A stretch of 33,070 nucleotides of DNA. Origin: Acidiferrobacteraceae bacterium (GTDB lineage Bacteria > Pseudomonadota > Gammaproteobacteria > Arenicellales > UBA868). Below, piece by piece: positions 2,961 through 21,738 of this stretch. Position 1 is the first letter of the stretch, and every line of letters begins with the position of its first letter. The translations under genes and the position numbers were made by a program. The notes below the pieces were generated by a model. That model searched no databases and was not told the origin of the DNA. It worked only from the letters and a program-made list of their open reading frames with translations. Where the stretch lies: assembly GCA_018698075.1 (NCBI GenBank), contig JABINT010000077.1, forward strand, positions 1 through 33,070. The letters run 5' to 3'.

Positions 2961-4229
2961 TTATGCCGCTTCTTTATTCCGGCCTTCTTCATAAGACAAC
3001 TCGGGGTCGCCCGGCCACCGGTCCATCCGCTGACCCCAAGCGCTGTAAAAATGGCGCATACCCTCTTCATCGTGAATGGTCGGATCTCCTTCAGCATCTA
3101 TCTCATGCCGGCCATGAAGGATGCGGCGCTTGTCTGCCCACTCATTCATAGCCGATTGTTGCGTCGAGACAGCCAGAAGATCCTCATGAAGATTTCGGCC
3201 AAATGGCCCCCAGATCGTGTTGTGGTGCCTTTGCCGAATCAGTCGCTCTTCTGGAGTGTCGCTCTTTAGCCCCAGACCACGGAATTCGATCATGACCTTA
3301 TCGGGACCAAGTGGCGTCATGATATCGGAGCGCAGCGCCGAACCACGCAGATTGAAATTCACTCCTGGGAAAAAATCGATCATCTCCCAATGGTTGGTCG
3401 GCAGATGTGGAAACGAAAGTTCTTCTCGAGATTCAAAGCCTTCGTACTGATCATACTGAACTTCGAAAGAGCCCACATTCACATGGCCGTTTTTAAACCC
3501 TTTATTCTTTCGAGCGAAATACGAGTCATTAAACCCAGTTACCCGGTTATGGTAATGCAGATAGTCATGATAAAACTCTGAGTTGGTGTCGTGCCAGAGC
3601 TTGTAATTACATGGGATGATTGCCTTATGGTAGTGAAACACTTCCAGCGGCTCGGCATCCAATGATTTCTGCATACAGTCAAAAGCGCCTCCAGCCCATT
3701 CTTCTACAGTCTGCTCTATGGCATCGTTTAGTGTGACCCAGACAAAGCCGCCATACTTCACTTCGCAACGGAGTCGTCGTAAACCCACATCACTGCAGGC
3801 AAGACGATCCTGGTAGCCCTCGGTGCCCCGGGATATATGTACGCAATTACCTTTCATATCGAACTGCCAGGCGTGAAACATGCAGGTCATGTGCTTCGGC
3901 GCGCCGGAGGGTGCTGCGGCCTCGAAAGATCCCGATGGGCGGTTCTCGATCATATTGCCGCGATGCGGGCAAACATTCAGGAAGGCACGAATTTCGTTAT
4001 CTGGGCCTCGCACAATCATTATCGGCTCTCGAGCAATGGTCGTGGTTCTGAAACAATAGGGGTCGGGTAATTCGGACTCATGACAAACTGGCATCCAGAC
4101 CTTGCGGAAAATCTTGGCGATCTCCTCTTCAAAGATGCCCCGATCGGAATAGATTCGACTGTCGACGTAGTCTCCGGGGGCTATCTTCCCAGGAATTGTT
4201 GCCCACTGCTTCGCATTTCTGGCTGGCAT
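2961..4229 (-). CDS. Rieske non-heme iron oxygenase alpha (large) subunit
   Basis: Rieske CPH...CMFHAWQF and catalytic-domain NYKLWHDTNSEFYHDYLHYHNR region. Confidence 0.93.
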   Translation of the reverse strand: MPARNAKQWATIPGKIAPGDYVDSRIYSDRGIFEEEIAKIFRKVWMPVCHESELPDPYCFRTTTIAREPIMIVRGPDNEIRAFLNVCPHRGNMIENRPSGSFEAAAPSGAPKHMTCMFHAWQFDMKGNCVHISRGTEGYQDRLACSDVGLRRLRCEVKYGGFVWVTLNDAIEQTVEEWAGGAFDCMQKSLDAEPLEVFHYHKAIIPCNYKLWHDTNSEFYHDYLHYHNRVTGFNDSYFARKNKGFKNGHVNVGSFEVQYDQYEGFESREELSFPHLPTNHWEMIDFFPGVNFNLRGSALRSDIMTPLGPDKVMIEFRGLGLKSDTPEERLIRQRHHNTIWGPFGRNLHEDLLAVSTQQSAMNEWADKRRILHGRHEIDAEGDPTIHDEEGMRHFYSAWGQRMDRWPGDPELSYEEGRNKEAA

Positions 4230-4548: not shown

Positions 4549-5553
4549 CTACTTACGACCTGTTTTCTTCCGGGTAGCCTTCTTCTTGGCTGCCTTCTTA
4601 GTTGTCTTTTTTGCCGGCAATGATGTCTTCTTCGCGGTCTTGCGCTTGGAAGCCTTGCTCGCCTTGGTATCGAGTTGTTCCAGCTTGGACTCCCACTTCA
4701 TCTTACGAGCGAACTTCAGGGCTTCCTCATCACTCATATACACCGTGTGCTCAGGCCCAGGATATATTTCGGCCTTAACCTCATCCCGGTATCGAATAAA
4801 CACATCTTCGATAATCGGTATCAAATCAGTGTAGATCTTTGAATGACGTGGTGTGTGTTCCTCGTAAAGGTGAAAGAGGTCTGAGGTAATGATATGAACC
4901 CCATGCGCTCCCAACCCCGCGCCTAGGCTGATTACCGGAACTGGCAATACCTGAGCCAGGTACTCGTTCACCTCCTGGGTCGTTACCTCGCACATGATCG
5001 AAAAACATCCCGCATCGACCATAGCCCAAGCATCATCGACTAATTCTTCTGCGCGGACTGCTGTTTTGCCCTGAGCAAAAAATCCGCCCAGTTGCGGCAT
5101 ACGCATCGGGGTAATACCAATGTGGCCTTGGACCGGAATACCTGCCCGATTGATCGCTTCGATGTTACGAGCATGGTACTGGTTGCCTTCGCACTTCATT
5201 ACTTCGGCATTCGCCTCATGTACAAAACGGCCTGCATTTTCTACCGCCTGTTCCGGTGAAATGTGAAAACTCCAGTACGGCATATCAACCATGCGTAAAC
5301 CATACTGACTGCCGCGGTCGATAGCTTTGGCCATCATCATCACTTCATCAAAAGTAACTGTAACAGTGCTCTTGTGCCCAAACAGAATCATGCCACCAGT
5401 ATCCGACACGCATAGGATATCGATTCCCAGTCGGTCCGCAATTACCGCGTTGCGGTAGTCATAGATCGCCATCTGTACTATCTGTTCACCTTCGCGCATT
5501 TTGCGTCGCAACTGATTTAGTGTGACCTTGCGCCGGGGCTTGTCGTCAGCCAT
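4549..5553 (-). CDS. PanB-like (ketopantoate hydroxymethyltransferase family) protein with Lys/Arg-rich C-terminal tail
   Basis: Divergent PanB-like blocks (IVQMAIYDYRNAVIADRLGIDILCVSDTGG, VDMPY, VMKCEGN, GIPVQGHIGITPMRMPQLGGF, SLGAGLGAHG); tail KASKASKRKTAKKTSLPAKKTTKKAAKKKATRKKTGRK. Confidence 0.83.
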   Translation of the reverse strand: MADDKPRRKVTLNQLRRKMREGEQIVQMAIYDYRNAVIADRLGIDILCVSDTGGMILFGHKSTVTVTFDEVMMMAKAIDRGSQYGLRMVDMPYWSFHISPEQAVENAGRFVHEANAEVMKCEGNQYHARNIEAINRAGIPVQGHIGITPMRMPQLGGFFAQGKTAVRAEELVDDAWAMVDAGCFSIMCEVTTQEVNEYLAQVLPVPVISLGAGLGAHGVHIITSDLFHLYEEHTPRHSKIYTDLIPIIEDVFIRYRDEVKAEIYPGPEHTVYMSDEEALKFARKMKWESKLEQLDTKASKASKRKTAKKTSLPAKKTTKKAAKKKATRKKTGRK

Positions 5554-6241: not shown

Positions 6242-7000
6242 TTAAAGTAGTCCGACAACAATGCGAATCAGCATAGCCGCGCCCACGAGCAATAGGGCAA
6301 AAGCAATGAACCGCTTCAAAGTATCGCGCGACACGTGATGCGCAACGCGGGCACCCACAATGACTCCAGCCGCCAGCATTACCGCAATGCCAAGGCCCAG
6401 CCCAAACTCGATATGGCCAAACGCCAGGTTACCTCCCGTTGCCAGTAGCGCGATTGGAATCTGAATAATCTGGCTTAGGCCCACGGCAGTCAGAACTGGA
6501 ACTTTCAGCCAGATCAATAGGGGCACCAGGATCAGCGGGCCACCCGTTCCGGTTATTGATGAAGCAAATCCTGTGACTACTCCAATAACCAGCAGGAAAA
6601 CCGGGCTCAAAAAGTTCTCTGTACCGGCATTTTCAGCCTGCGGGCGCAAAGCCTGAAGCCCCGACAAAAAAACCAGCAGTCCGATAATGCCCTCGAGAAC
6701 GGCGCCGGGGGTCTGCCAGGTAGCCAGCGCACCCAAATAAGCCCCAGGCATTCCGCCAAGACATAGCCATAGGCCCATGTTCCACTGGATAGAGCCCCGC
6801 CGAGAATACTCAATAGCGCCTACTGCGCCGCTGAAAAGGTAAGAAAACATCGCCGTAGCGATCGCCACATGAATGCCAAAACCAAGAGCATAAGTGAGCA
6901 TTGGGACCAACAAAACGCCGCCGATCCCGATGGCGCCAATCAGCACGCCAACGATAATCGCGACTCCGCCCGCAAGGGCCATAGCCGCTGTACTAAGCAT
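6242..7000 (-). CDS. TauE/SafE-family (sulfite exporter-like) membrane protein
   Basis: 252 aa polytopic; IGAIGIGGVLLVPML and ASSITGTGGPLILVPLLIW paired motifs typical of TauE/SafE. Confidence 0.88.
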   Translation of the reverse strand: MLSTAAMALAGGVAIIVGVLIGAIGIGGVLLVPMLTYALGFGIHVAIATAMFSYLFSGAVGAIEYSRRGSIQWNMGLWLCLGGMPGAYLGALATWQTPGAVLEGIIGLLVFLSGLQALRPQAENAGTENFLSPVFLLVIGVVTGFASSITGTGGPLILVPLLIWLKVPVLTAVGLSQIIQIPIALLATGGNLAFGHIEFGLGLGIAVMLAAGVIVGARVAHHVSRDTLKRFIAFALLLVGAAMLIRIVVGLL

Positions 7001-8822: not shown

Positions 8823-11399
8823 CTAGGCTCTTCGACCCATTGACCTTTTGCGATATCGGAATATTATTCCTGCCAGCAGTACGACCAGCAAAGGACCAGC
8901 GGCCAGGTTAATTAATACCAGACGAGCGCCCAACCCGTCTACCTTGGTACGAATACCACGCCTGACTTCTCGAAGTTCCCGACGGGCAGAAAGTAATTTG
9001 CTTTCAAATTCCTTCAGTTGGCGTTTCATGCTCTCGGGCAACTGCGCATATTCGATGTGCTCGGTTCCCTCGGCCAGACCGCTAATTTGCTGTTCCAGCT
9101 TGGTCACTTCACCAGCAAGACTGGCCTCTTTATCTTGCAACCCAGCTTGTGCCACTCGAAACAAATCAGCCACTCGTGTAAACGGCCGCTGCAACTTCCC
9201 GCGAGACCGTATTCCTATCAACGCCTCATCCCCTGTGGCAAATTCAATCATATTCAATAAAAAAGCCAGATTATCATTGAGTGGTCGAACCACAGTATCC
9301 TCGCCAAGCCGTGTATGCTGAAGCGAGAATGGATCGAACAGCCAGTCCACATCGGCTACCGCAAAGACAACCGGGGCGCCACGGGAGGACTGGAGGTGCA
9401 AAACGCCAGTACTGTGCGACGCTGACAAGTGATACGCACTTTTTAGGGGGCCCTTCACAACCACAGCAAGCGCTCTGGGCTGCGACTGACCAGCAAAGGT
9501 CATTGCCAACTCACGCGGCGTTTTTCGGGCAAACGACTCCCTAGGATAAACGCCTGCATCAACTGTGGTTGTAACCAGAACCGTTCCGTCGGCCACTGAG
9601 TCAAGAGTCAACGCGCCGGGCTCAACCAATAAGAGTTCATTCAGATTAGCGGTCGTTGGGTGAACCGACGACAACCCCGCAGCGCGAACTCTCATCCAGT
9701 AAGGATAGTTAAGGCGGCCCTGCTGATCATCAGCAACCACAGATGCGAGTTGTGTATCACCAACAATCCCCTCGCCCTGGTAATTGATACCGTATCTTGC
9801 AAGCAAATCAGAAATGTCGTTGATCTCATCGGATGGCTGAGGGTTCGTCACGTTGTTGGCAGGCTTGACCCGGGTATATGGATCAATCATCACGATCAGG
9901 CTGCCGCCTCCCATAACGTACTGGTCGATTGCATAAAGCATGTCCTCGTGCAGTATGTCGGTACCGAGCAAAATCAACGCGTCAAGATCGGCCGGTAGCT
10001 GGGTTTCAAAGAAGGGCACTACAGCAAGGTCATAGGCTCGCTTCAGTTCGGCCATGAATGACAGGCCATCGCGCTCGGCGAGAGCTGCTGAGGATGGCAA
10101 CAAGGGGCTGATCAATGCAATCCGGGGTGTTGATTGGCGGGTCAAGCCATTCAAAGCCTGGGCAAGATCGTACTCCAACAGACTCTCCCGACGAATATCC
10201 AGGTACGGAATCCGCCCAAGCCGTCCCCCATGCTCTATTGTGATTCCGAGAAAAAAGTGGTCACCAGACGACATAGGTACCCGATGCATACCGCGGGCCA
10301 TCGCCTGAAGCTCCTGTTCGGTGTCAGGTTCTGGATCAACCAAGGTCCACTCCAATGTGGACCGCCCAGACATTCCTGAAAGCAGTCGCTGAATGCGCCG
10401 AGCATGTGCCTTAATAGACGCTGGAACAGTATCTTCAGTGTCACTCCAGTAGAGGGTCAATTGGGTTTTTTCCGGTAACTGCTCAAGCACCTGCTTCGTT
10501 CCAGAATGAAGACTGAATTCCTTTGCTGCAGTCAAATCAAACTGGCCAGGCAGATTCGCTGCTAACGGGATACCGAGCAGCCACAACAGACACAGCGTCA
10601 GCAGCCGTGCCAGGCGTTTTCCAGAAAACAGTTTACGCAGGTCGCCCCGACGTCTTTCCTCGATCACCCAATGAGTCACCAACAAGGCCAGGCCGATGGT
10701 CAACCCGAAATACAAAAGACCCTGTGGGCGTATCACGCCTTCTCCAAGACGATTCAGCCAGGTAACCGGGCTGTACACTGAAAGTGTTTCCCACGCCCAC
10801 TGGGGCAGCACATTGCGAAGGAGTCGGCCAAAGACGTCCCACCCGCAAAGCATCAGCAGAAATAGCGCCCCAATGCCTGCAACAAAAGCACCTACTGTCT
10901 CGCGAACGAACGCGGCCGCCAGCAACGCAACAGCGAAACACGCGCCAAGCAGTAAAGCGCAAGCTAGATAACCGGCCACCATAACGCCAAAATCTGGTTC
11001 GCCAAGATAGCTCACCGTAATCGCGAACGGAAATGTTAGCGCAAGTGTGAGGAGCAAGAGCAGATAGCCTGCGGTGAATTTCCCGATAACAATGGCAGCC
11101 CGACTGACAGGCAATGAATATATGAGTTCCATTTCGCGATCCGCCTGATTGTCTGCCCAAGCCGACATAGCAAGCGCGGGAACCAGCACCAAGGAGATCC
11201 AGGGAATGAACCCCAGTAACAAACGAAGGGTTGCCTCATCTGACGAATAAAAATCGGCAACCAGAAAAATACAGGCGCCTAACCCAAGCAAAAAGGCTGC
11301 CTGAAAGAGGTAACTCAAAGGCGTGAAAAATAGTAGCCGCAATTCATGGCGCAGTACTGCACTGAATCCAGAAATGATACTGATCTTTAATTCACTCAT
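8823..11399 (-). CDS. ABC-2-type permease fused to a GldG-like auxiliary domain
   Basis: 858 aa: N-terminal ABC-2 permease (multiple TM, ADNQADREMELIYSLPVSR), then GldG-like extracytoplasmic domain (AKEFSLHSGTKQVLEQL..., GGGSLIVMIDPYTR) and C-terminal TM. Confidence 0.88.
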   Translation of the reverse strand: MSELKISIISGFSAVLRHELRLLFFTPLSYLFQAAFLLGLGACIFLVADFYSSDEATLRLLLGFIPWISLVLVPALAMSAWADNQADREMELIYSLPVSRAAIVIGKFTAGYLLLLLTLALTFPFAITVSYLGEPDFGVMVAGYLACALLLGACFAVALLAAAFVRETVGAFVAGIGALFLLMLCGWDVFGRLLRNVLPQWAWETLSVYSPVTWLNRLGEGVIRPQGLLYFGLTIGLALLVTHWVIEERRRGDLRKLFSGKRLARLLTLCLLWLLGIPLAANLPGQFDLTAAKEFSLHSGTKQVLEQLPEKTQLTLYWSDTEDTVPASIKAHARRIQRLLSGMSGRSTLEWTLVDPEPDTEQELQAMARGMHRVPMSSGDHFFLGITIEHGGRLGRIPYLDIRRESLLEYDLAQALNGLTRQSTPRIALISPLLPSSAALAERDGLSFMAELKRAYDLAVVPFFETQLPADLDALILLGTDILHEDMLYAIDQYVMGGGSLIVMIDPYTRVKPANNVTNPQPSDEINDISDLLARYGINYQGEGIVGDTQLASVVADDQQGRLNYPYWMRVRAAGLSSVHPTTANLNELLLVEPGALTLDSVADGTVLVTTTVDAGVYPRESFARKTPRELAMTFAGQSQPRALAVVVKGPLKSAYHLSASHSTGVLHLQSSRGAPVVFAVADVDWLFDPFSLQHTRLGEDTVVRPLNDNLAFLLNMIEFATGDEALIGIRSRGKLQRPFTRVADLFRVAQAGLQDKEASLAGEVTKLEQQISGLAEGTEHIEYAQLPESMKRQLKEFESKLLSARRELREVRRGIRTKVDGLGARLVLINLAAGPLLVVLLAGIIFRYRKRSMGRRA

Positions 11400-11415
11400 T
11401 GAATCAGCGTCGACA

Positions 11416-12147
11416 TTAGGAAGTCGTCAAGGGTTCTTGGTCATGCACGGTCAGTTTTCTGAACTGAGTACCTAGACGCCCCGAACTATCGACCAGATCG
11501 GCCAGACTAGCATCAGCGATCAGCTGACCATGATTGATCACCACAACCCGATCGCACAATTCTTCTGCCTCTTCCAGAATATGTGTCGATAACACAATGG
11601 TTCTGCCAACTTTCATCTTACGTACCAAACGCCTCACCAATTCCTTCTGGTTGGGGTCCAGCCCATCCGTGGGCTCATCGAGAACCAATACCCTGGGTTC
11701 ATGCAAAATGGCCTGAGCAAGCCACGCTCTTTGTCGCCAACCCTTGGATAATTGCGCAAGGGGTCGTGATAGCGCTGGCCCGAGTTCAACCCGATCACAG
11801 GCCTGATCAATCGCGTTCTCAAGCGGCCGGCCTGATAAACGCCGAGCTTGGCCGCAGAACACCAGAAACTCATAAACGGTCAACCGGCCAAAACCGTTGG
11901 GCGCCTCTGGAAGGTAGCCCAGAGACATCTGAGCCGCCTGGGTTTGTCGCACGATGTCCGAACCACAAATTCGAACCGAGCCACTGTCCGGAAGGAGATA
12001 CCCAGAGACCATACGCATAGTGGTGGTCTTGCCTGCGCCGTTGGGGCCAAGAAAACCAACGACTGAATCAGACTCCAGTTTCAGGGAAAGTTTGTTTACC
12101 GCCTGAATATCTCCAAAACTCTTGGAGAGATTTTCTATCTCAAGCAC
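11416..12147 (-). CDS. ABC transporter ATP-binding protein (GldA-like)
   Basis: Walker A GPNGAGKTT, signature LSKGWRQR, Walker B VLVLDEPTDGLDP, H-loop STHILEEAEELCD; GTG start assumed. Confidence 0.95.
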   Translation of the reverse strand: MLEIENLSKSFGDIQAVNKLSLKLESDSVVGFLGPNGAGKTTTMRMVSGYLLPDSGSVRICGSDIVRQTQAAQMSLGYLPEAPNGFGRLTVYEFLVFCGQARRLSGRPLENAIDQACDRVELGPALSRPLAQLSKGWRQRAWLAQAILHEPRVLVLDEPTDGLDPNQKELVRRLVRKMKVGRTIVLSTHILEEAEELCDRVVVINHGQLIADASLADLVDSSGRLGTQFRKLTVHDQEPLTTS

Positions 12148-12481: not shown

Positions 12482-13318
12482 CTAGGGCCTGCGAGAGTAG
12501 GATTCCAGAAAATCTGAACTCGAACCAACCCCCTTAAAGCTCTTTAGTGCCTCCTCGTGGAGCATTTCCATAGCATGACGTTTATATTCATAAGCCTGTG
12601 AAGAACTCAGCATCTCCAGATTTCTCGGCCGTGGCAAATCAATCTGCACTACTTCTCTCACCGTGGCTGGCCGGTTTGACAGTACAACCAGGCTGTCAGC
12701 AAGGATAATAGCCTCCTCAAGCTCAGAGGTGACAAATACGTTAGTCCGAGCCTCCTGCTCGCATAAGCGCATGTAGAACTCCTGCATCAACTGACGAGTC
12801 ATGGCGTCCAGACCGCGGAATGGCTCATCCATGATCATAACCAGCGGTTGGTTAATCAACGCCCGTGCAAGCTCAGCACGCCGTTGCATGCCACCTGACA
12901 GCTGCAAAGGATACTTGTCCCGAAACTCTTTGAGTCCAACCGTTTCAATAATACTGTCGGCCGCCTCTTTTAATTGATCGCGAGGTATATCGCCGCGCAA
13001 CTTGGGGCCAAAGGTGACGTTCTGGTAGGTAGTTAACCAAGGCATCAAAGCGGTTTCCTGAAAGACAACCAGCGTATCTTTGCTGGGACCTGTAACTGGG
13101 CGCCCATCCAGCAGGATTTGACCGCTGTCTGGCTTCTCGAACCCTGCCAACAAGTTGACTACTGTCGATTTGCCACAGCCTGAGGGCCCAACAATCGCGG
13201 TAAGTTGATTGCGTCGAATTTTGAGACTGAGATTCTCAATAACCATCTCACGTTCCCAGTCCTCCCCAAATGCCTTGGAGACATTATTTACTTGCATCAT
13301 GTCAGGTGCGTCTGCCAT
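12482..13318 (-). CDS. NitT/TauT/SsuB-type ABC ATPase A (lacks H-loop histidine)
   Basis: GPSGCGKST, VVFQETALMPW, LSGGMQRR, VMIMDEPFRGLD, VFVTSELEEAI; ATG at 13318 preferred over upstream GTG at 13330. Confidence 0.93.
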   Translation of the reverse strand: MADAPDMMQVNNVSKAFGEDWEREMVIENLSLKIRRNQLTAIVGPSGCGKSTVVNLLAGFEKPDSGQILLDGRPVTGPSKDTLVVFQETALMPWLTTYQNVTFGPKLRGDIPRDQLKEAADSIIETVGLKEFRDKYPLQLSGGMQRRAELARALINQPLVMIMDEPFRGLDAMTRQLMQEFYMRLCEQEARTNVFVTSELEEAIILADSLVVLSNRPATVREVVQIDLPRPRNLEMLSSSQAYEYKRHAMEMLHEEALKSFKGVGSSSDFLESYSRRP

Positions 13319-13387
13319 TAAATCTTCCACCGGTTCAGTTCACGATTTACCATTTTCTATTCTTGAAATTTTCCTGAAATACTACAA

Positions 13388-14230
13388 TCAGAACATCCGC
13401 CGCCACGGCATCGATCTGTAGCCGATATACCGTATAAGACTACTGGAGATATATCCTGCCAATCCTATGCTGATCATGCCGACGATAACCTGATCCATTA
13501 CGCCACCCATGTAGGAACTCCAGATGAAAAAGCCTAATCCCCCGCCACTTTGCTGACCACCACCGGAAATCATCTCAGCCGCTAGCACTACTTCCCATGT
13601 AATTCCCATACCTACGGCGGCGCCGATAAAAATGGATGGCAAAGTGCCGGGCAGAATAATCTTACGAAAAAGATCCCACTGAGTTGCGCCCATCGACTGC
13701 GCCGCCCGTAGGTACTGGATATCTACAGCACGTGCGCCGCCGAGTACATTAATGACGATGGTATAGAACGCTCCAAGAAACGTGACAAACATGATCGACA
13801 ATTCTGTAGTTGGCCAGAAAATGATGGAGGCCGGCACCCATGCAAGCGGTGGTATCGGACGAAGGATCTCAAATGGCGGGAAAAACATGCCTCGAAAATA
13901 TTTATTGACTGCCATCGCTAGTCCAAATGGGATTCCAATAATTTGTGCAATCAAAAAACCTAGGAACACCCGGCCCATACTCAGATACCAACTTTCCCAA
14001 TATCCAGGCAAAAGAACCACATCGCTCCAGCGAGTCGCAACGATTGATGGCGCATCCACCTTTCCCACAAACGGGACCATAACTCCGAACCACTCGTTGA
14101 ATCGAAATCCGATCTCCCACAGAGTAAGAAATATCAGTATTGATAAAACACCACGTCTGAAAGTCAGATCTGAAACTAGGGCTTTAGCTCTAGCGCCTAG
14201 CGTTTCCTGTCTCTTCGATGCCTTTCCCAT
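13388..14230 (-). CDS. NitT/TauT/SsuC-type ABC permease A
   Basis: LRPIPPLAWVPASIIFW and EAA-loop-like YLRAAQSMGATQWDLFRKIILPGTLP. Confidence 0.93.
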   Translation of the reverse strand: MGKASKRQETLGARAKALVSDLTFRRGVLSILIFLTLWEIGFRFNEWFGVMVPFVGKVDAPSIVATRWSDVVLLPGYWESWYLSMGRVFLGFLIAQIIGIPFGLAMAVNKYFRGMFFPPFEILRPIPPLAWVPASIIFWPTTELSIMFVTFLGAFYTIVINVLGGARAVDIQYLRAAQSMGATQWDLFRKIILPGTLPSIFIGAAVGMGITWEVVLAAEMISGGGQQSGGGLGFFIWSSYMGGVMDQVIVGMISIGLAGYISSSLIRYIGYRSMPWRRMF

Positions 14231-14269
14231 CTTATTTCCTCAACTTTCAGTTACTGCGCGCGATGAACA

Positions 14270-15139
14270 TTAAGCAAGCTCTCGCTCACCCGCTTCAAAC
14301 GCTTTGACTGCTTCTTCATGAACCGCTTCTTTGGTCTCTTGTACTAAAATCCTAAACTCTTCAGAAGACAGTAACCGATAATCTCTTGGCCTATTGATTT
14401 TTACTTCGACTATTTTCTTTGTCCTGGCAGGACGCGTCGTCATAACAATGACTCTATCCCCAAGGAAAATTGCTTCTTCCAAATCATGCGTTATGAAAAA
14501 GATGGTAACTCGAGTGCGGTCATATACCTCAAGCAGAGATTCATGCATGATTGACTTGGTCAGCGCGTCCATAGCACGATAGGGTTCATCCAGCAGCAAT
14601 ACTTTGGGATCGTTTATCAACGCGCGAACGATTTCTGCCCGTCGCGCCATTCCCGAGGACACTTCGCCCGGATACTTGTCTGCGACACCCGATAATCCAG
14701 CCTCAGATAGCATCGAAATTGCTTTCTCGCGAGCATCGGCTTTATTCATTAATCCCTGAACAATCGGGCCATAAGCTACGTTATCAGCCAACGTTTTCCA
14801 GGGGAACAGTGCGCCATTCTGGAATACGACAACCCGATCAGCACCCTGATCTGCCAGCGGTTTGTCCGGTCCACAGAGCATTTCACCATCAAGATCTATC
14901 TGCCCTGATGTGATCGAGTGAAAACCGGCAATAGCGTTCAGCAAGGTTGTCTTGCCACAGCCGGATGGCCCAACAATCATACAGACCTCAGCCGGCGCTA
15001 TTTCTAAAGAGCAATCGTCCACCGCAAGGACATTTGCACCCTTTGGGTCATAAATCTTGGTGACATTGCGTATGCTGATCGCCCCCTTAGTGGAAGCGTT
15101 CTTATCTGTTGCCGGCTGCTGATGAGCTGCTGTAGTCAT
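14270..15139 (-). CDS. NitT/TauT/SsuB-type ABC ATPase B (degenerate VSSGM signature)
   Basis: GPSGCGKTT, VVFQNGALFPW, VSSGMARR, VLLLDEPYRAMD, FFITHDLEEAIFLGD. Confidence 0.93.
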   Translation of the reverse strand: MTTAAHQQPATDKNASTKGAISIRNVTKIYDPKGANVLAVDDCSLEIAPAEVCMIVGPSGCGKTTLLNAIAGFHSITSGQIDLDGEMLCGPDKPLADQGADRVVVFQNGALFPWKTLADNVAYGPIVQGLMNKADAREKAISMLSEAGLSGVADKYPGEVSSGMARRAEIVRALINDPKVLLLDEPYRAMDALTKSIMHESLLEVYDRTRVTIFFITHDLEEAIFLGDRVIVMTTRPARTKKIVEVKINRPRDYRLLSSEEFRILVQETKEAVHEEAVKAFEAGERELA

Positions 15140-16009
15140 CTACACACCTCCTTGGCCAAGCGCCTTTGCTCGCCACCGCATCATACGATTGCCGGCAGCG
15201 CGCACCATTGCTGAGGTTATCCAACCAACGAGTCCCAGCGTTAACATGGCCATAACCATGGTGGTGTACTTGTTAACCATATAAGAAGCCATAATCATAT
15301 AACCCAACCCATAATCACCAGAGATCATCTCTGCTGCCACTAGAGAAAACCAAGCTACCCCGATACTGATCTGCAAACCGGTAAATATAAATGGCAAAGA
15401 GCCGGGCACGACCACGTTGATGAAGACATGTCGTTTCTTAGAGCCAAGGCAACCTGCTGCGCGGAAATATGATTCATCAATGGACTCTACACCGAGCATT
15501 GTGTTTAAAGCGGTCACAAAAAAAGAGGCTAAGGTTGCCAGATAGATGATTGGCGTCTCAAACCCCGAGAACATCACAATTGCAAGCGGAACCCATGCGA
15601 GAATCGGAATCGGCCGTAAGGTCTCCAGCACTGGAAAAGTATAATCCTTAAACTTCTTTGACCAGCCCATAAAGAGGCCCAGGGGCACACCGAGAACTGT
15701 TGCCAGAGCGAAGCCAATAATGACTCGCCTGCAACTGACCCAAATATTAATATAGTAGTCTTCGGTAAAAAGCGAGGTACCCCAGATCGGGTCTCTACTT
15801 AGCCATTCGGTTATTACCTCGACCGGGCCCGGGATCTTAAAAAAGGGGAAAATTTTCCAATACTCATTTAAAAGAAAATAGGTCAGTAGCCATAGCCCGA
15901 TACCCGCGAACGCCAGGTATGGCATGGGCGTCTTCAATGATTTCCAGGTCTTGTACAAAAAATACTGAAAGCCTGTTGGAGCGTGCCCGCTGACACCTTG
16001 ATTACTCAT
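15140..16009 (-). CDS. NitT/TauT/SsuC-type ABC permease B
   Basis: LRPIPILAWVPLAIVMF and EAA-loop-like YFRAAGCLGSKKRHVFINVVVPGSLP; abuts ATPase B. Confidence 0.93.
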   Translation of the reverse strand: MSNQGVSGHAPTGFQYFLYKTWKSLKTPMPYLAFAGIGLWLLTYFLLNEYWKIFPFFKIPGPVEVITEWLSRDPIWGTSLFTEDYYINIWVSCRRVIIGFALATVLGVPLGLFMGWSKKFKDYTFPVLETLRPIPILAWVPLAIVMFSGFETPIIYLATLASFFVTALNTMLGVESIDESYFRAAGCLGSKKRHVFINVVVPGSLPFIFTGLQISIGVAWFSLVAAEMISGDYGLGYMIMASYMVNKYTTMVMAMLTLGLVGWITSAMVRAAGNRMMRWRAKALGQGGV

Positions 16010-16204: not shown

Positions 16205-17338
16205 TTATTGGTATGCAGAATCCGGCTGTTCACCCACAAATCCGATGGGTGCCGACAAGCCTCGTGATGTCAGAACTTCTTTTGCTACATCATCCATGAT
16301 GGCTTCTGGTCGCAATATCGCATTCGGTACCACCTTCCGGCCATTCAGGAACCTAGTTGCCGCAGAAACCAGTTGCCTGGCCGTATCATCAAACACGTAT
16401 CGCAACGTCAGCTTTTCTTCTCCGCCACCGATCGCAGGAGGGTTCTTACCATACAGTGATGCCCAGAGTACACGTCGATCCATGCCTTCGGTCTGGTCGT
16501 CTGCCATCTGTGATACTGCTGTAGCATTACCCAAATCTTTTAAGAACAACTGGGCGTCTAACTCAGCTTCGAGCCAGCCACGCTGTACATCGGGCCGGTC
16601 ACGAATGATCTCGTAGAGCATCGCCAAAAAGCCTGCATCACCGCCTTCTACGCCATCAAAGCTTTCGCCAGATGCTGCGCGCCGCGCAATACCCTGCAAC
16701 TGAATCTTCGAAGCGGTAGGCTCCCAGATAACTGCGGCATCGAGTTTGTTGTTCTTGAAGCTGGAGGTGATAACCTCGATGTTCATGTTGAGGTATTTTT
16801 TGGGCTGGATGCCAGCCTGCTCGAATGCCCAACGGGCAAAACGGTCAGTACATGCGCCATGGGGGGCAGCAACTAACTTACCGTCCATCCACTTAACCGC
16901 GTCAAGGCCATTTGCGAACTCCGGTGCATCATTCTTCACCAGGAATACGTTGCACTGCTGACGCGACGTTCCCAACACAGCGATCATACGAATATCAACT
17001 TTATCCTTCTTAGTGGTCGATACGATCGCAGGCATATCGCCCATGTAACCAAGATGGTTCTTCTCACCCAACATCTTGCCGACGATGACTGAGCCTTGCA
17101 GTCCAATTTCAAATTTCACATCGGACCCGGCCGGCAGATACTTCTTCCAGGAATTCTGACCATTGATCACAACCCCGGACCATGATTCGGTGTAATAAGG
17201 CTGATACCCAACTACCAGGTTGACGGCCTCACCCGGCTTACCAAAGCCAACCTCGGCAACCGCTGGCTGCACAGCACCCACGCAGAGCATGGCGGCTCCT
17301 GCACTGATAGATAATATGGGCTTATTTAAGTTATACAT
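16205..17338 (-). CDS. NMT1/SsuA/TauA-like periplasmic substrate-binding protein
   Basis: Signal peptide MYNLNKPILSISAGAAMLCVGAVQPAVAEV; NLVVGYQPYY, MGDMPAIV, APHGACTDRFARW, DAAVIWEP. ATG at 17338 preceded by GGGGAG; the longer ORF to 17515 has no signal-like N-terminus. Confidence 0.9.
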   Translation of the reverse strand: MYNLNKPILSISAGAAMLCVGAVQPAVAEVGFGKPGEAVNLVVGYQPYYTESWSGVVINGQNSWKKYLPAGSDVKFEIGLQGSVIVGKMLGEKNHLGYMGDMPAIVSTTKKDKVDIRMIAVLGTSRQQCNVFLVKNDAPEFANGLDAVKWMDGKLVAAPHGACTDRFARWAFEQAGIQPKKYLNMNIEVITSSFKNNKLDAAVIWEPTASKIQLQGIARRAASGESFDGVEGGDAGFLAMLYEIIRDRPDVQRGWLEAELDAQLFLKDLGNATAVSQMADDQTEGMDRRVLWASLYGKNPPAIGGGEEKLTLRYVFDDTARQLVSAATRFLNGRKVVPNAILRPEAIMDDVAKEVLTSRGLSAPIGFVGEQPDSAYQ

Positions 17339-17636: not shown

Positions 17637-19112
17637 TCAGCGATTGGGATTTTTCCCTGGTGCGAGGGTATCGTAAATGGTTGCACCGGCTTTTGCTGGG
17701 TCGCTCGATTCGCGCCGGATTGGCATATCGGCAAGTTGGCCAACCGTGATGGGTCGTATGGGTGGCCGGATTCGGTAGTGACCGATGTCGCCCACCGACA
17801 TGTCATGCACCTGCGCCATCAACTGGCTGACGGTAGCGGCGCACTTACGGCCCATGCAAGGGCCCATGCCGCAACGGGTAAACGCCTTGGCCTGATTGGG
17901 CCCCATGCAGCCACGTGCCGCAACGCTGCGGATCTCCCCCGCGGTAACCTCTTCGCAGCGACAGACGATGGTATCGTCATCGAGAGGCAACTGAAACTGC
18001 GAAGTCGGCGGAAAGTATCGATCCAGAAAACGTCGCAAGCGGCGCTGGCGCTTCAACGCTGCGGGTTCAGGCAAAGGTTGTGTACTACCAATGCCGCTCA
18101 ATTTCCCGAGTACTTCATGGGCGACTCGCTCACCTTGCAGCATGGCCACCTCGGCACCTGCAATACCCACAGAGTCTCCCACCATGAATATGGATTCGCG
18201 GCTAGTCATACCAACGCCCCGGATGTCCGGAACCCAAGTCCCTTGGAGAGAATCAAAATGGTGCGCAATACCTGCTGACATCGACAGCCAGGTATTAGAA
18301 ATCACCCCATCATGAACCAACAGCAGTGCCGTTGCCATATCGTACGAACGTCCTGCTGACTGGTAGCTGACTGATCGCAACTTATCGTCACCTTTAGCTC
18401 TTAGGTCAGTCACGTGGGAGGTCACCTCGACCTGTCTTTTTACACCGTGCATCCAGCGGTTGCCCTGGATCACAGCACCTGGGCAAGCCAACAGCGCGTT
18501 CAACCCGAATAAGTACGTACCCCAGGATGCACTCGGCCGGGTATCTAGAATCGCCTGGGGCGTTATGCCCATACCAATCAACTGATTTGCATAAAGATAA
18601 AGCAGTGGACCGGTGCCGGCGAGCACCACGTCATTTTCAGGCAGTAAGCCGGATGATTTGAGCAGGGTCTGCGCCGCACCCACAGTCATCACCCCAGGCA
18701 AGGTCCAGCCCAAAAAGGGTGTTGGGCGCTCCATCGCGCCGGTTGCCAGGATAATATGACGCGGGTAAAGCATTTGCGCAGCGCCGTTTTCTACCAGACC
18801 CAGCGCCAGTTCAGGCTCCTGATCCGAGGTAATCTCCCATACCGAAGTGCCAGGGCGGTAATACGCTCCACTTTCTCTGAAACGTCTGGCCAACTTTATT
18901 CCAGCGCCGTAGCTGGCGCCCAGCGGGTTCAAATCTGATGGCCGCGTCGCATTGACTTTCTCTATTCCCCGGAATACCTGGCCACCAGGTGCCTGCTGCT
19001 CATCAAGCACGACCACATCAACGCCTTTGCCGGCAAGTACACAGGCCGCGGCCAGGCCAGCAGGCCCGGCTCCAACAATGGCTACCTCACAGGTGGATCT
19101 AATATCGCTCAT
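17637..19112 (-). CDS. FAD/NAD(P)-dependent oxidoreductase with C-terminal BFD-like 2Fe-2S domain (HcnB/opine-oxidase A-like)
   Basis: VAIVGAGPAGLAAACVLAGKGVDVVVLDEQ, ATGAMERPTPFLGWTLPGVMTVGAAQTLLKSSG, CRCEEVT...CGMGPCMGRKC. Confidence 0.9.
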   Translation of the reverse strand: MSDIRSTCEVAIVGAGPAGLAAACVLAGKGVDVVVLDEQQAPGGQVFRGIEKVNATRPSDLNPLGASYGAGIKLARRFRESGAYYRPGTSVWEITSDQEPELALGLVENGAAQMLYPRHIILATGAMERPTPFLGWTLPGVMTVGAAQTLLKSSGLLPENDVVLAGTGPLLYLYANQLIGMGITPQAILDTRPSASWGTYLFGLNALLACPGAVIQGNRWMHGVKRQVEVTSHVTDLRAKGDDKLRSVSYQSAGRSYDMATALLLVHDGVISNTWLSMSAGIAHHFDSLQGTWVPDIRGVGMTSRESIFMVGDSVGIAGAEVAMLQGERVAHEVLGKLSGIGSTQPLPEPAALKRQRRLRRFLDRYFPPTSQFQLPLDDDTIVCRCEEVTAGEIRSVAARGCMGPNQAKAFTRCGMGPCMGRKCAATVSQLMAQVHDMSVGDIGHYRIRPPIRPITVGQLADMPIRRESSDPAKAGATIYDTLAPGKNPNR

Positions 19113-19205
19113 CCAATACTCCGATGGGAATCACGCCAGCACTTGTGATTAAAACTGTTCATAGCTGTTGTAGCATGTCTATTTGTTGACAATGATCTAT
19201 CTTGA

Positions 19206-20330
19206 TCAGTCGATGCCAAACCGTTTCAAGACAAACGGTGCAAGTAATTCACTTCGCTCGCCGCTCAAAGCCCACTTTACGATCAAAGTTGCAACGACTG
19301 GCGCAATTGCCCAGCCATGCCCCGACCATCCAGTCGCAACGTAGCCATTGGCAATTCCCGGTACACGATCAATTATCGGAATATCATCAACGCTCATCGC
19401 CTCAAGATGGCCTGCATCGGTCGTTGCAACCTCGACGCCCTGAAGTTCAGGGAAAACTGCGATAGCCTGTGCAAGATTACCTTCGACCGCCGACGGCAGA
19501 ACACGGCCGCGTTGACTCGTAACATCCCATGCGCCGTGCCAGCCGCCGGATATCATCAAACGGTTGTCAGGCTCCGCCTTGATCGAAACCATGCGATGCG
19601 CATGCGCCAGCAGAGTGTCCACATGAACCCGGCCGAACGGTTCCGTGATCATCACCTGCAGGCAGGCGTTCCAAACCGGAAGTTGCAGATTAAACGCCGT
19701 CTTCACCAGCTCATGAGCACCACTGTTGGCAAGGACAAACAGGTTACCGCTGAAGGCAATTGATTCACCCTTTGCGGTGATCACGGCAGTCACACTATCG
19801 CCATGGGTTTCAAAATGACTGATCGCGGTATCCTCCTGGACAACGACCCCCATATTCCTTGCACGATCGGCAACAGCCCGGGTAAAACCGCCATGATCAC
19901 AAACACCATCCTTAGCACAGTAGATACCTGCTTTTATATCTTGTGAAAGCCCAGCCTGAATCTCGCCCAGTTCCCCACCCGCAACAAGACGACAATCAAT
20001 TCCCTGGCTGCGTTGCATCTGCACCCGCGCATCGGCAGAGGCAAGATCATCATCTCGTTCTAGCAGCAGGAGATGTCCAGTGCGCTGATAAAAACCCTGG
20101 CTACCCAGCTCCTCTTCGAGTAAAGGCCATCGTCGGTAAGCCTGCCGCATTAAAGGCAGCTCCCGAAGATCGCGTCCATTGGCCCGGACGCCGCGACGCC
20201 CTGGCCCACCCGACGCACCGCAGGCGACGGACCCCGCTTCCAGCACTTGAACCTGACGACCCAAGCGCGCGAGTTCCAGAGCAACCAGCATGCCGTAGGC
20301 CCCCGCACCGATCACAATATCATCTGGCAT
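19206..20330 (-). CDS. DAO-family FAD-dependent oxidoreductase (HcnC / amino-acid dehydrogenase beta-like), copy 2
   Basis: DIVIGAGAYGMLVALELARLGRQVQVLEAG; VDDIPIIDRVPGIANGYVATGWSGHGWAIAP; ATG at 20330. Confidence 0.9.
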   Translation of the reverse strand: MPDDIVIGAGAYGMLVALELARLGRQVQVLEAGSVACGASGGPGRRGVRANGRDLRELPLMRQAYRRWPLLEEELGSQGFYQRTGHLLLLERDDDLASADARVQMQRSQGIDCRLVAGGELGEIQAGLSQDIKAGIYCAKDGVCDHGGFTRAVADRARNMGVVVQEDTAISHFETHGDSVTAVITAKGESIAFSGNLFVLANSGAHELVKTAFNLQLPVWNACLQVMITEPFGRVHVDTLLAHAHRMVSIKAEPDNRLMISGGWHGAWDVTSQRGRVLPSAVEGNLAQAIAVFPELQGVEVATTDAGHLEAMSVDDIPIIDRVPGIANGYVATGWSGHGWAIAPVVATLIVKWALSGERSELLAPFVLKRFGID

Positions 20331-20342
20331 GCTCACCTCCCT

Positions 20343-20636
20343 TCAGCCGGACTCGGCATGGGTGTTCGGCATCATACGTACCTGCATCCCTTCAGCCACT
20401 TCAATCAGGCACGCTTGTACAGCGCCCTGCCCTTCAATCTCGACCAGACATTCGTAACAGTTGCCGATCATGCAAAAAGGCGCTCGCGCCGAACCGCTCA
20501 CCGGCGAGCGCCTGAGTTGAGATATACCGGCTGCCAACAGAGCGCCGGCAACGCTGTCCCCCCGGTTGGCGAGCACCTCACGGTCCTCGAACCAAAAGCT
20601 CACCGGGTCAGCGATGTTATGGCGACGATGAAACAT
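20343..20636 (-). CDS. Small 2Fe-2S-binding protein (HcnA-like gamma subunit)
   Basis: CMIGNCYECLVEIEGQGAVQACLIEVAEGM; about 97 aa; ATG at 20636. Confidence 0.88.
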   Translation of the reverse strand: MFHRRHNIADPVSFWFEDREVLANRGDSVAGALLAAGISQLRRSPVSGSARAPFCMIGNCYECLVEIEGQGAVQACLIEVAEGMQVRMMPNTHAESG

Positions 20637-21738
20637 CAAAACGCTCTAAACCAAAGCATTGATAAGCAGCCGGTATCTCGCCATCGAGCACCCACTGGGG
20701 GACTTCGTGTGCATGTACCGCCGCCAGGGTAACGCCGCTATGACAGGAAAAAGAAAACGCACCGGGAAACTCCGAGGACTGCGTATAAACAGGAAAGCCA
20801 TCGGGCGTCATGATCCGTAACGCGGCCCAAGTGCGCTGGATGCGCAGATCCCGCAAGTAAGGAAACGCGCGAGTGCATTGGCGGGCAATGTCCTGAAGCG
20901 TTGATGTTTGGGTATCCAAATCAAAGCCTGCATCCCGCGCTGACGGGCCCAACATGAAATTGCCCTCGTCAGTTTGACGGACATAGTTCGTTGGATAGCC
21001 CAAAATATCTGGACTTCTTTCGGTCACGATGATCTGCCCCTGTACCGGAAGTACAGGCACCGAGAGCCGCAGCTGCGCTCCCAGATCACTCGAGCCATGT
21101 CCCGCGGCAATCACCAACCTTTCGCAGCCAACGACAAGCCTCGCGCCACTGAAAAGCTCGAAGCCTCCTGAGTCGAGTGGGCGAATACGGTCGATGTGCG
21201 ATCGCGGCAGATAGGTTCCGCCATTAAGATCAAAACCCTCCTGAAGCGCGCGCAACAACCGCAAGGGATTGACGTGACCATCGTGCGGGCAATAGGTAGC
21301 GCCTGGCACCTCGGGCCCGATTCCGGGCAGCGACTCAGCGAGTGTCGGGTTCTCGACCACCTCGTAGTCATACCCCTCATCGCCTGCGTCCTCGCGTAAC
21401 TGCGCCAGGACGTTGAGGTTTGCACGAAACTCTCCCTCATCTATCGCAATATAGAAGCCACCTGGCCGGTGATAATCTACACAGGTGCCGGTTGTCTCAG
21501 CCAGTTCGTCACTGAATGCAAGCCACTCATCAGCAGATTTGCGCGACCAACGTGCATATTCCGGCATACCTTGGCCTTTCCCTTGAACCCACACCAGGCC
21601 AAAGTTTCCCCGCGCAGTACGGATGGCATTATCACCCTCATCGATCAGCCCAACACTGTCACTGAGTTTGCTCAGCCCATAAGCAAACGCCGAACCCAGC
21701 AGTCCGCCTCCGATCACTGCGATATCAAGTGGCTTCAC
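20617..21738 (-). CDS. DAO-family FAD-dependent oxidoreductase, copy 1
   Basis: DIAVIGGGLLGSAFAYGLSKLSDSVGLIDEG; RIMTPDGFPVYTQSSEFPGAFSFSCHSGVTLAAVHA; GTG start. Confidence 0.9.
   Translation of the reverse strand: MKPLDIAVIGGGLLGSAFAYGLSKLSDSVGLIDEGDNAIRTARGNFGLVWVQGKGQGMPEYARWSRKSADEWLAFSDELAETTGTCVDYHRPGGFYIAIDEGEFRANLNVLAQLREDAGDEGYDYEVVENPTLAESLPGIGPEVPGATYCPHDGHVNPLRLLRALQEGFDLNGGTYLPRSHIDRIRPLDSGGFELFSGARLVVGCERLVIAAGHGSSDLGAQLRLSVPVLPVQGQIIVTERSPDILGYPTNYVRQTDEGNFMLGPSARDAGFDLDTQTSTLQDIARQCTRAFPYLRDLRIQRTWAALRIMTPDGFPVYTQSSEFPGAFSFSCHSGVTLAAVHAHEVPQWVLDGEIPAAYQCFGLERFDVSSSP

Follow-up and report, generated by a model that had tools for sequence, protein, structure and literature searches.

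A candidate methanesulfonate importer with two sister ATPases predicted to pair one consensus with one altered ATP site

Results

The DNA analyzed here is a stretch of 33,070 nucleotides (the window) from a draft gammaproteobacterial genome (2.67 Mb, 203 contigs, 89% complete). Five importer genes lie on its minus strand and are transcribed in the order binding protein (MsmE, 16205–17338), permease (MsmF, 15140–16009), ATPase B (14270–15139), second permease (MsmH, 13388–14230) and ATPase A (12482–13318). ATPase B has a 99% match in a gammaproteobacterial MAG. Scanning GTDB genomes with ATPase B yielded 80 loci, distributed over alpha-, beta- and gammaproteobacteria. Within the window's own family, a search with ATPase A gave 13 loci, the window itself among them; the genomes sampled were Pseudomonadota, and other phyla were covered only by scans of genome contigs and plasmids. 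MsmF was present in 77 of the 80 loci and MsmH, which is also assigned by synteny, in 79. Both permeases contain a BPD_transp_1 domain, and because MsmF differs from MsmH the transmembrane domains are probably heterodimeric. The ATPases and permeases are closest to the Nrt, Tau and Ssu families, which marks the system as a NitT/TauT-type importer. MsmE (73 of 80 loci) is a predicted periplasmic substrate-binding protein, SsuA-family-like and identified by synteny with msmE. It has no Pfam match, scores 56.9 bits against TIGR01728 (cut-off 163.5) and falls below the cut-off for all named sulfonate-binding families. Three msm-type loci (L026, L067 and L073) are in MAGs labelled Crocinitomicaceae and Bordetella parapertussis (ATPase B identity of 79% and 68–69%), which are probably mis-binned or mislabelled.

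Methanesulfonate is a common marine sulfur compound, and the window contains a methanesulfonate island. In addition to msmEFGH, the minus strand encodes the monooxygenase large subunit MsmA (2961–4229), the small subunit MsmB (2336–2827; SnoaL_4 and Ring_hydroxyl_B; 51 of 80 loci), the Rieske ferredoxin MsmC (1864–2241; PF00355) and the reductase MsmD (775–1818; Fer2, FAD and NAD domains). The flanks of related loci carry a Rieske oxygenase whose homolog in the window is MsmA. This protein is 70% identical to a Hansschlegelia protein encoded near msmE, and its Rieske motif (CXH-X26-CXXH) has the 26-residue spacer that is reported to occur specifically in large subunits of methanesulfonate monooxygenase (PMC4433239). 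A TauE/SafE-type transporter (6242–7000, minus strand; PF01925) is a candidate sulfite exporter of the island; a sulfite exporter has likewise been reported for the Filomicrobium msm region (PMC4433239). Between msmA and tauE lies a ketopantoate hydroxymethyltransferase-like gene (4549–5553; PF02548), and a similar one is listed for the Filomicrobium region. Two more minus-strand genes fall outside the importer: an ABC-2 ATPase next to ATPase A (11416–12147; 49 of 80 loci) and a GldG-like ABC_transp_aux membrane protein of 858 amino acids (8823–11399; 47 of 80). The pair (8823–12147) is downstream of ATPase A in about 48 of the 80 msm loci. A cluster of FAD-dependent oxidoreductase genes with BFD/sarcosine-oxidase A3 domains (17637–21738) adjoins an oligopeptide-type ABC transporter and resembles an operon for an amino acid or opine oxidase.

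In Filomicrobium, msmE, F, G and H are followed by a gene annotated as a "nitrate/sulfonate/bicarbonate ABC transporter ATPase" and by two "ABC transporter" genes (PMC4433239). The msmE-F-G-H order is present in the window, so ATPase B corresponds to MsmG and ATPase A to the unnamed fifth gene; ATPase A is syntenic with the unnamed ATPase gene beside msmH in Filomicrobium Y. The same gene order, with MsmA/B/C/D nearby, is shared by the MsmEFGH systems of Methylosulfonomonas, Filomicrobium and SAR116. The arrangement differs in that MsmA lies 8 kb past ATPase A on the same strand in the window, whereas it is divergent from msmE in the published layout. Transport of methanesulfonate by MsmEFGH has been proposed in the literature (PMC4433239). 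Among 50 full-length loci, MsmA adjoins the transporter in 38 and is absent within ~6 kb in the other 12. Judged by gene content and order, the importer locus is a probable uptake pump for methanesulfonate.

ATPase A contains Walker A (GPSGCGKST), Q-loop (VVFQ), signature (LSGGM) and Walker B (MIMDEP) motifs, and its H-loop (VFVTSELEEA) places Ser198 (codon TCT, 12725–12727, minus strand) at the position of the switch histidine. ATPase B has the corresponding motifs GPSGCGKTT, VVFQ, VSSGM and LLLDEP, with a serine for glycine at the third position of the signature (14648–14662, minus strand), and retains the switch histidine (His218 in FFITHDLEEA). The Walker A lysine, the Walker B Asp-Glu pair and the Q-loop glutamine are intact in both proteins. 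Re-reading of the open reading frames, strands and motifs confirmed to the base the original prediction that A combines an intact signature with a serine switch and that B combines a switch histidine with an altered signature; its statement that Walker A and the Walker B glutamate are intact holds for both ATPases. AlphaFold single-chain models of the two proteins are reasonably confident predictions (pLDDT 86 for A and 81 for B), with best PDB fold matches to NrtD/CmpD for A and CmpD/NrtD for B. An arginine follows Walker B in both (DEPFRGLD in A, DEPYRAMD in B), where most canonical relatives have glycine (DEPFGALD). It is invariant in both subunits and is a derived feature common to the A+B clade.

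The two changes are conserved without exception. Among the 88 readable ATPase A sequences from the 80 and 13 loci, the switch residue is serine in 70 and threonine in 18, and never histidine; the signature is LSGGM in 89 of 89. ATPase B has serine at the third signature position (SSG) and histidine at the switch in 93 of 93 sequences. A canonical switch was thus found in 0 of 88 A sequences and a canonical signature in 0 of 93 B sequences. All 89 A and all 93 B sequences retain the Walker B glutamate, and the Walker A lysine is invariant in every A and B sequence that reaches that far. All four TCN codons encode the serine at the switch of A (TCA 27, TCG 18, TCC 16, TCT 9) and that in the signature of B (TCG 30, TCC 27, TCA 23, TCT 13), and the 18 threonines are encoded by ACN, which indicates that the amino acid is held and not the DNA. 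The genes also occur together: A was found in all 86 B loci with downstream room, and B in all 76 A loci with upstream room. As a baseline, 36 NBDs were read from 30 loci of the window's own genome. ATPase A was the only one of these with serine at the switch; the other non-histidine switches belonged to LivF-type domains and were glutamine. Outside ATPase B, a residue other than glycine at the third signature position occurred in just two domains of this set, both of the ABC-2 type (LSKGW and LSRGY).

In two trees (271–272 columns, of which both trait columns are included and make up a negligible share), A and B form sister clades inside the NitT family. Support is 100/99 for A, 100/98 and 99/99 for B, and 91/97 and 96/96 for A+B; TauB, SsuB, NrtD, CmpC, CmpD and a dozen genome-derived ATPases fall outside. 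The canonical NitT relatives that were read have LSGGM, ISGGM or LSGGQ with a switch histidine. They include CmpCD as well as SsuB, TauB and NrtCD, relatives against which the original prediction proposed to align the ATPases. A second, divergent system, present in the same genus and also in one further genome (G087), has A ~48–51% and B ~55–59% identical to those of the window (L128:5579–10158 in G087:C55; L130:6746–11006 in G023:C16). It has both changes (ISSGM/LSSGM in B, TSE within ITSELEE in A), so these were present before the two systems split, following one duplication. An NMT1-like binding protein of its own accompanies this second system, and MsmA does not adjoin it; at L130 the system is next to three PLP enzymes and a 513-residue protein without a Pfam match, and it may import a different sulfur compound. 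Together with the 12 full-length loci without nearby MsmA, it indicates that the asymmetry is not confined to methanesulfonate.

No sequence with just one of the changes was seen among the matches that were read out of 369 genomes at class level and 398 at phylum level. Every A/B-clade sequence there had the expected change, and every canonical one had neither. One locus (L118, LSGGMQRR), considered as an intermediate, was rejected because it lies outside the A+B clade and has a switch histidine and a long branch. In the plasmid collection, the matches listed were 39–48% identical, and the two that were read (Tistrella and Paracoccus) were canonical.

Discussion

We propose, with a probability of roughly two in three, that the locus encodes a methanesulfonate importer driven by an A/B heterodimer of NBDs with one consensus and one altered ATP site. 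This reading comes from sequence comparison. The transporter would be a type I importer of the NitT/TauT family, built from the MsmE binding protein, the MsmF and MsmH permeases, MsmG (ATPase B) and ATPase A as a fifth subunit. A and B would have arisen by a single gene duplication and would pair with each other. The consensus site would then comprise Walker A and B, the Q-loop and the switch histidine from B with LSGGM from A, and would carry out the hydrolysis that drives import. The other site would bring together Walker A and B from A, serine or threonine in place of the switch histidine, and VSSGM from B. It probably still binds ATP, since the Walker motifs and the second (serine) and fourth (glycine) signature residues are kept, and would most likely serve as an ATP clamp with a structural or regulatory role and slow or no hydrolysis. 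Because A keeps its Walker B glutamate, this site may still hydrolyze some ATP.

Assuming an A/B dimer, the catalytic motifs are altered in only one of the composite sites. The complementary changes, the strict co-occurrence of the genes and their sister paralogy fit, and support, an obligate NBD heterodimer. Pairing itself is suggested by co-occurrence, by paralogy and by the precedent of NrtCD and CmpCD; an A/B dimer is the natural expectation because the closest relatives of solved structure, NrtBCD and CmpBCD, each have two distinct NBD chains. The heterodimer of the original prediction is thus consistent with conservation, co-occurrence and descent; the link to methanesulfonate was not part of that prediction. 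Its description of the second site as degenerate goes too far in that both Walker motifs are kept and ATP is probably still bound there, and we refer to the site as altered.

Four other explanations were weighed. An A/B heterodimer might hydrolyze ATP at both sites, with the serine/threonine switch and the signature serine tolerated or jointly functional, and so use two ATP in the manner of DppDF; DppD and DppF both hydrolyze (PMC12136057). The retention in the altered site of both Walker motifs and of signature residues two and four is compatible with this, as is the invariant presence of a small hydroxyl residue at both changed positions, which is unlike a decaying site. Neither change was found in any canonical NitT relative that was read, however, and elsewhere degenerate sites come with H-loop and signature changes (review, PMC7756269), so we regard two active sites as unlikely, though the most serious of the alternatives. 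Somewhat more doubtful still is that the substrate is a different small sulfonate, or some related C1/C2 sulfur compound, and that the transporter merely adjoins the monooxygenase in some genomes. The loci without MsmA, the second A/B pair beside PLP enzymes and the low scores of MsmE against each named sulfonate-binding family would agree with this; against it stand the gene order shared with msmEFGH of organisms proven to use methanesulfonate, the diagnostic Rieske spacer of the window's MsmA and the presence of MsmA in most full-length loci.

Separate A and B homodimers acting on shared permeases are highly improbable, as either homodimer would be defective in both of its sites, and both the strict co-occurrence of A with B and the existence of two different permeases favor one asymmetric complex. 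The draft state of the source genome raises the question of sequencing error or pseudogene decay. The same residues recur across many genomes (88 and 93 sequences) with varying synonymous codons, the reading frames are intact and the predicted folds are confident, and we give this explanation almost no weight; conservation together with codon variation excludes chance or sequencing error as the origin of the changes.

A further step, which we put forward only tentatively, is that the altered site is purpose-built to hold ATP, with hydroxyls fixed at both positions, and that one ATP is hydrolyzed per methanesulfonate. If so, importers have reached a motor with one consensus and one altered site at least three times (LivFG, RbsA/NupO and Msm), and in two of these cases the same two positions were changed. 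Work on degenerate ATP sites has dealt almost exclusively with exporters, in which such sites are entangled with large multidomain chains. The asymmetry between A and B is minimal, at two residues, does not vary and is located on separate small subunits, so that the two sites can be mutated independently of each other in an importer of a single small substrate. The published msm operon counts one ATPase and lists ATPase A merely as an extra ORF, which suggests that it is without an essential subunit; this would matter for heterologous expression of methanesulfonate uptake.

Among known systems, the NitT-family importers NrtBCD and CmpBCD (cyanobacterial nitrate and bicarbonate transporters) have two NBD chains and are the best match in sequence and fold. 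Unlike A and B, their NBDs are canonical (LSGGM/ISGGM and THD), and the NrtC/CmpC chains extend to 665–690 residues, an extension that A and B lack. TauB and SsuB belong to the same NitT/TauT sulfonate-importer family, but in their systems only one ATPase gene is present, and its product has LSGGQ and THD. The original prediction held that such asymmetry would be unusual in an importer. It is not new in kind there, as LivF/LivG pairs of the HAAT family and RbsA/NupO already show such layouts; complementary defects in importers are rarely described, but other cases exist. RbsA and NupO, of sugar and nucleoside importers, have been described as having one degenerate site (PMC11466899). They have two NBDs fused in one chain and have lost a Walker A lysine, whereas A and B are separate chains that keep it. 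The new element is a case from the NitT family that has hydroxyls fixed at both positions and keeps the Walker B glutamate, in a pump with a likely ecological role.

One parallel among importers is the branched-chain amino acid transporter. E. coli K-12 LivF has MSGGE and a glutamine switch (VEQN), and LivG has LAYGD and IEHD, which makes the two subunits complementary at the very positions that are changed in A/B (livF and livG are at L174:3725–5207; the other LivF/LivG loci are L177–L203). Of the LivF-sorted domains in Pseudomonadota loci, E. coli and Paracoccus included, 20/20 combine SGG with glutamine; readable LivG-type domains have LSYG, LAYG or LSHG with histidine, apart from one in the window's own genome with LSGG and histidine. 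LivFG uses glutamine and tyrosine/histidine, and A/B uses serine/threonine and serine. A and B are not in the LivF/LivG clades (100/99 split), with canonical NitT members between. Given the different family, the intervening canonical members and the different residues, the LivFG changes are probably independent. The open-access literature searched gave no description of a degenerate site in NitT importers or in LivFG, a weak negative, and the A/B case directs attention to LivFG as a very common type of importer with this pattern.

CFTR, TAP, TM287/288 and BmrCD combine one consensus and one degenerate site from opposite subunits, as proposed for A/B, but these are exporters or a channel, whereas A and B belong to an importer. 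CFTR has serine at the NBD1 switch and LSHGH in NBD2, and is thus altered at the same two positions as A/B. Degenerate exporter sites usually also change the Walker B glutamate, although ABCG5/G8 differs (PMC7756269). The altered site of A/B keeps this glutamate, unlike most degenerate exporters.
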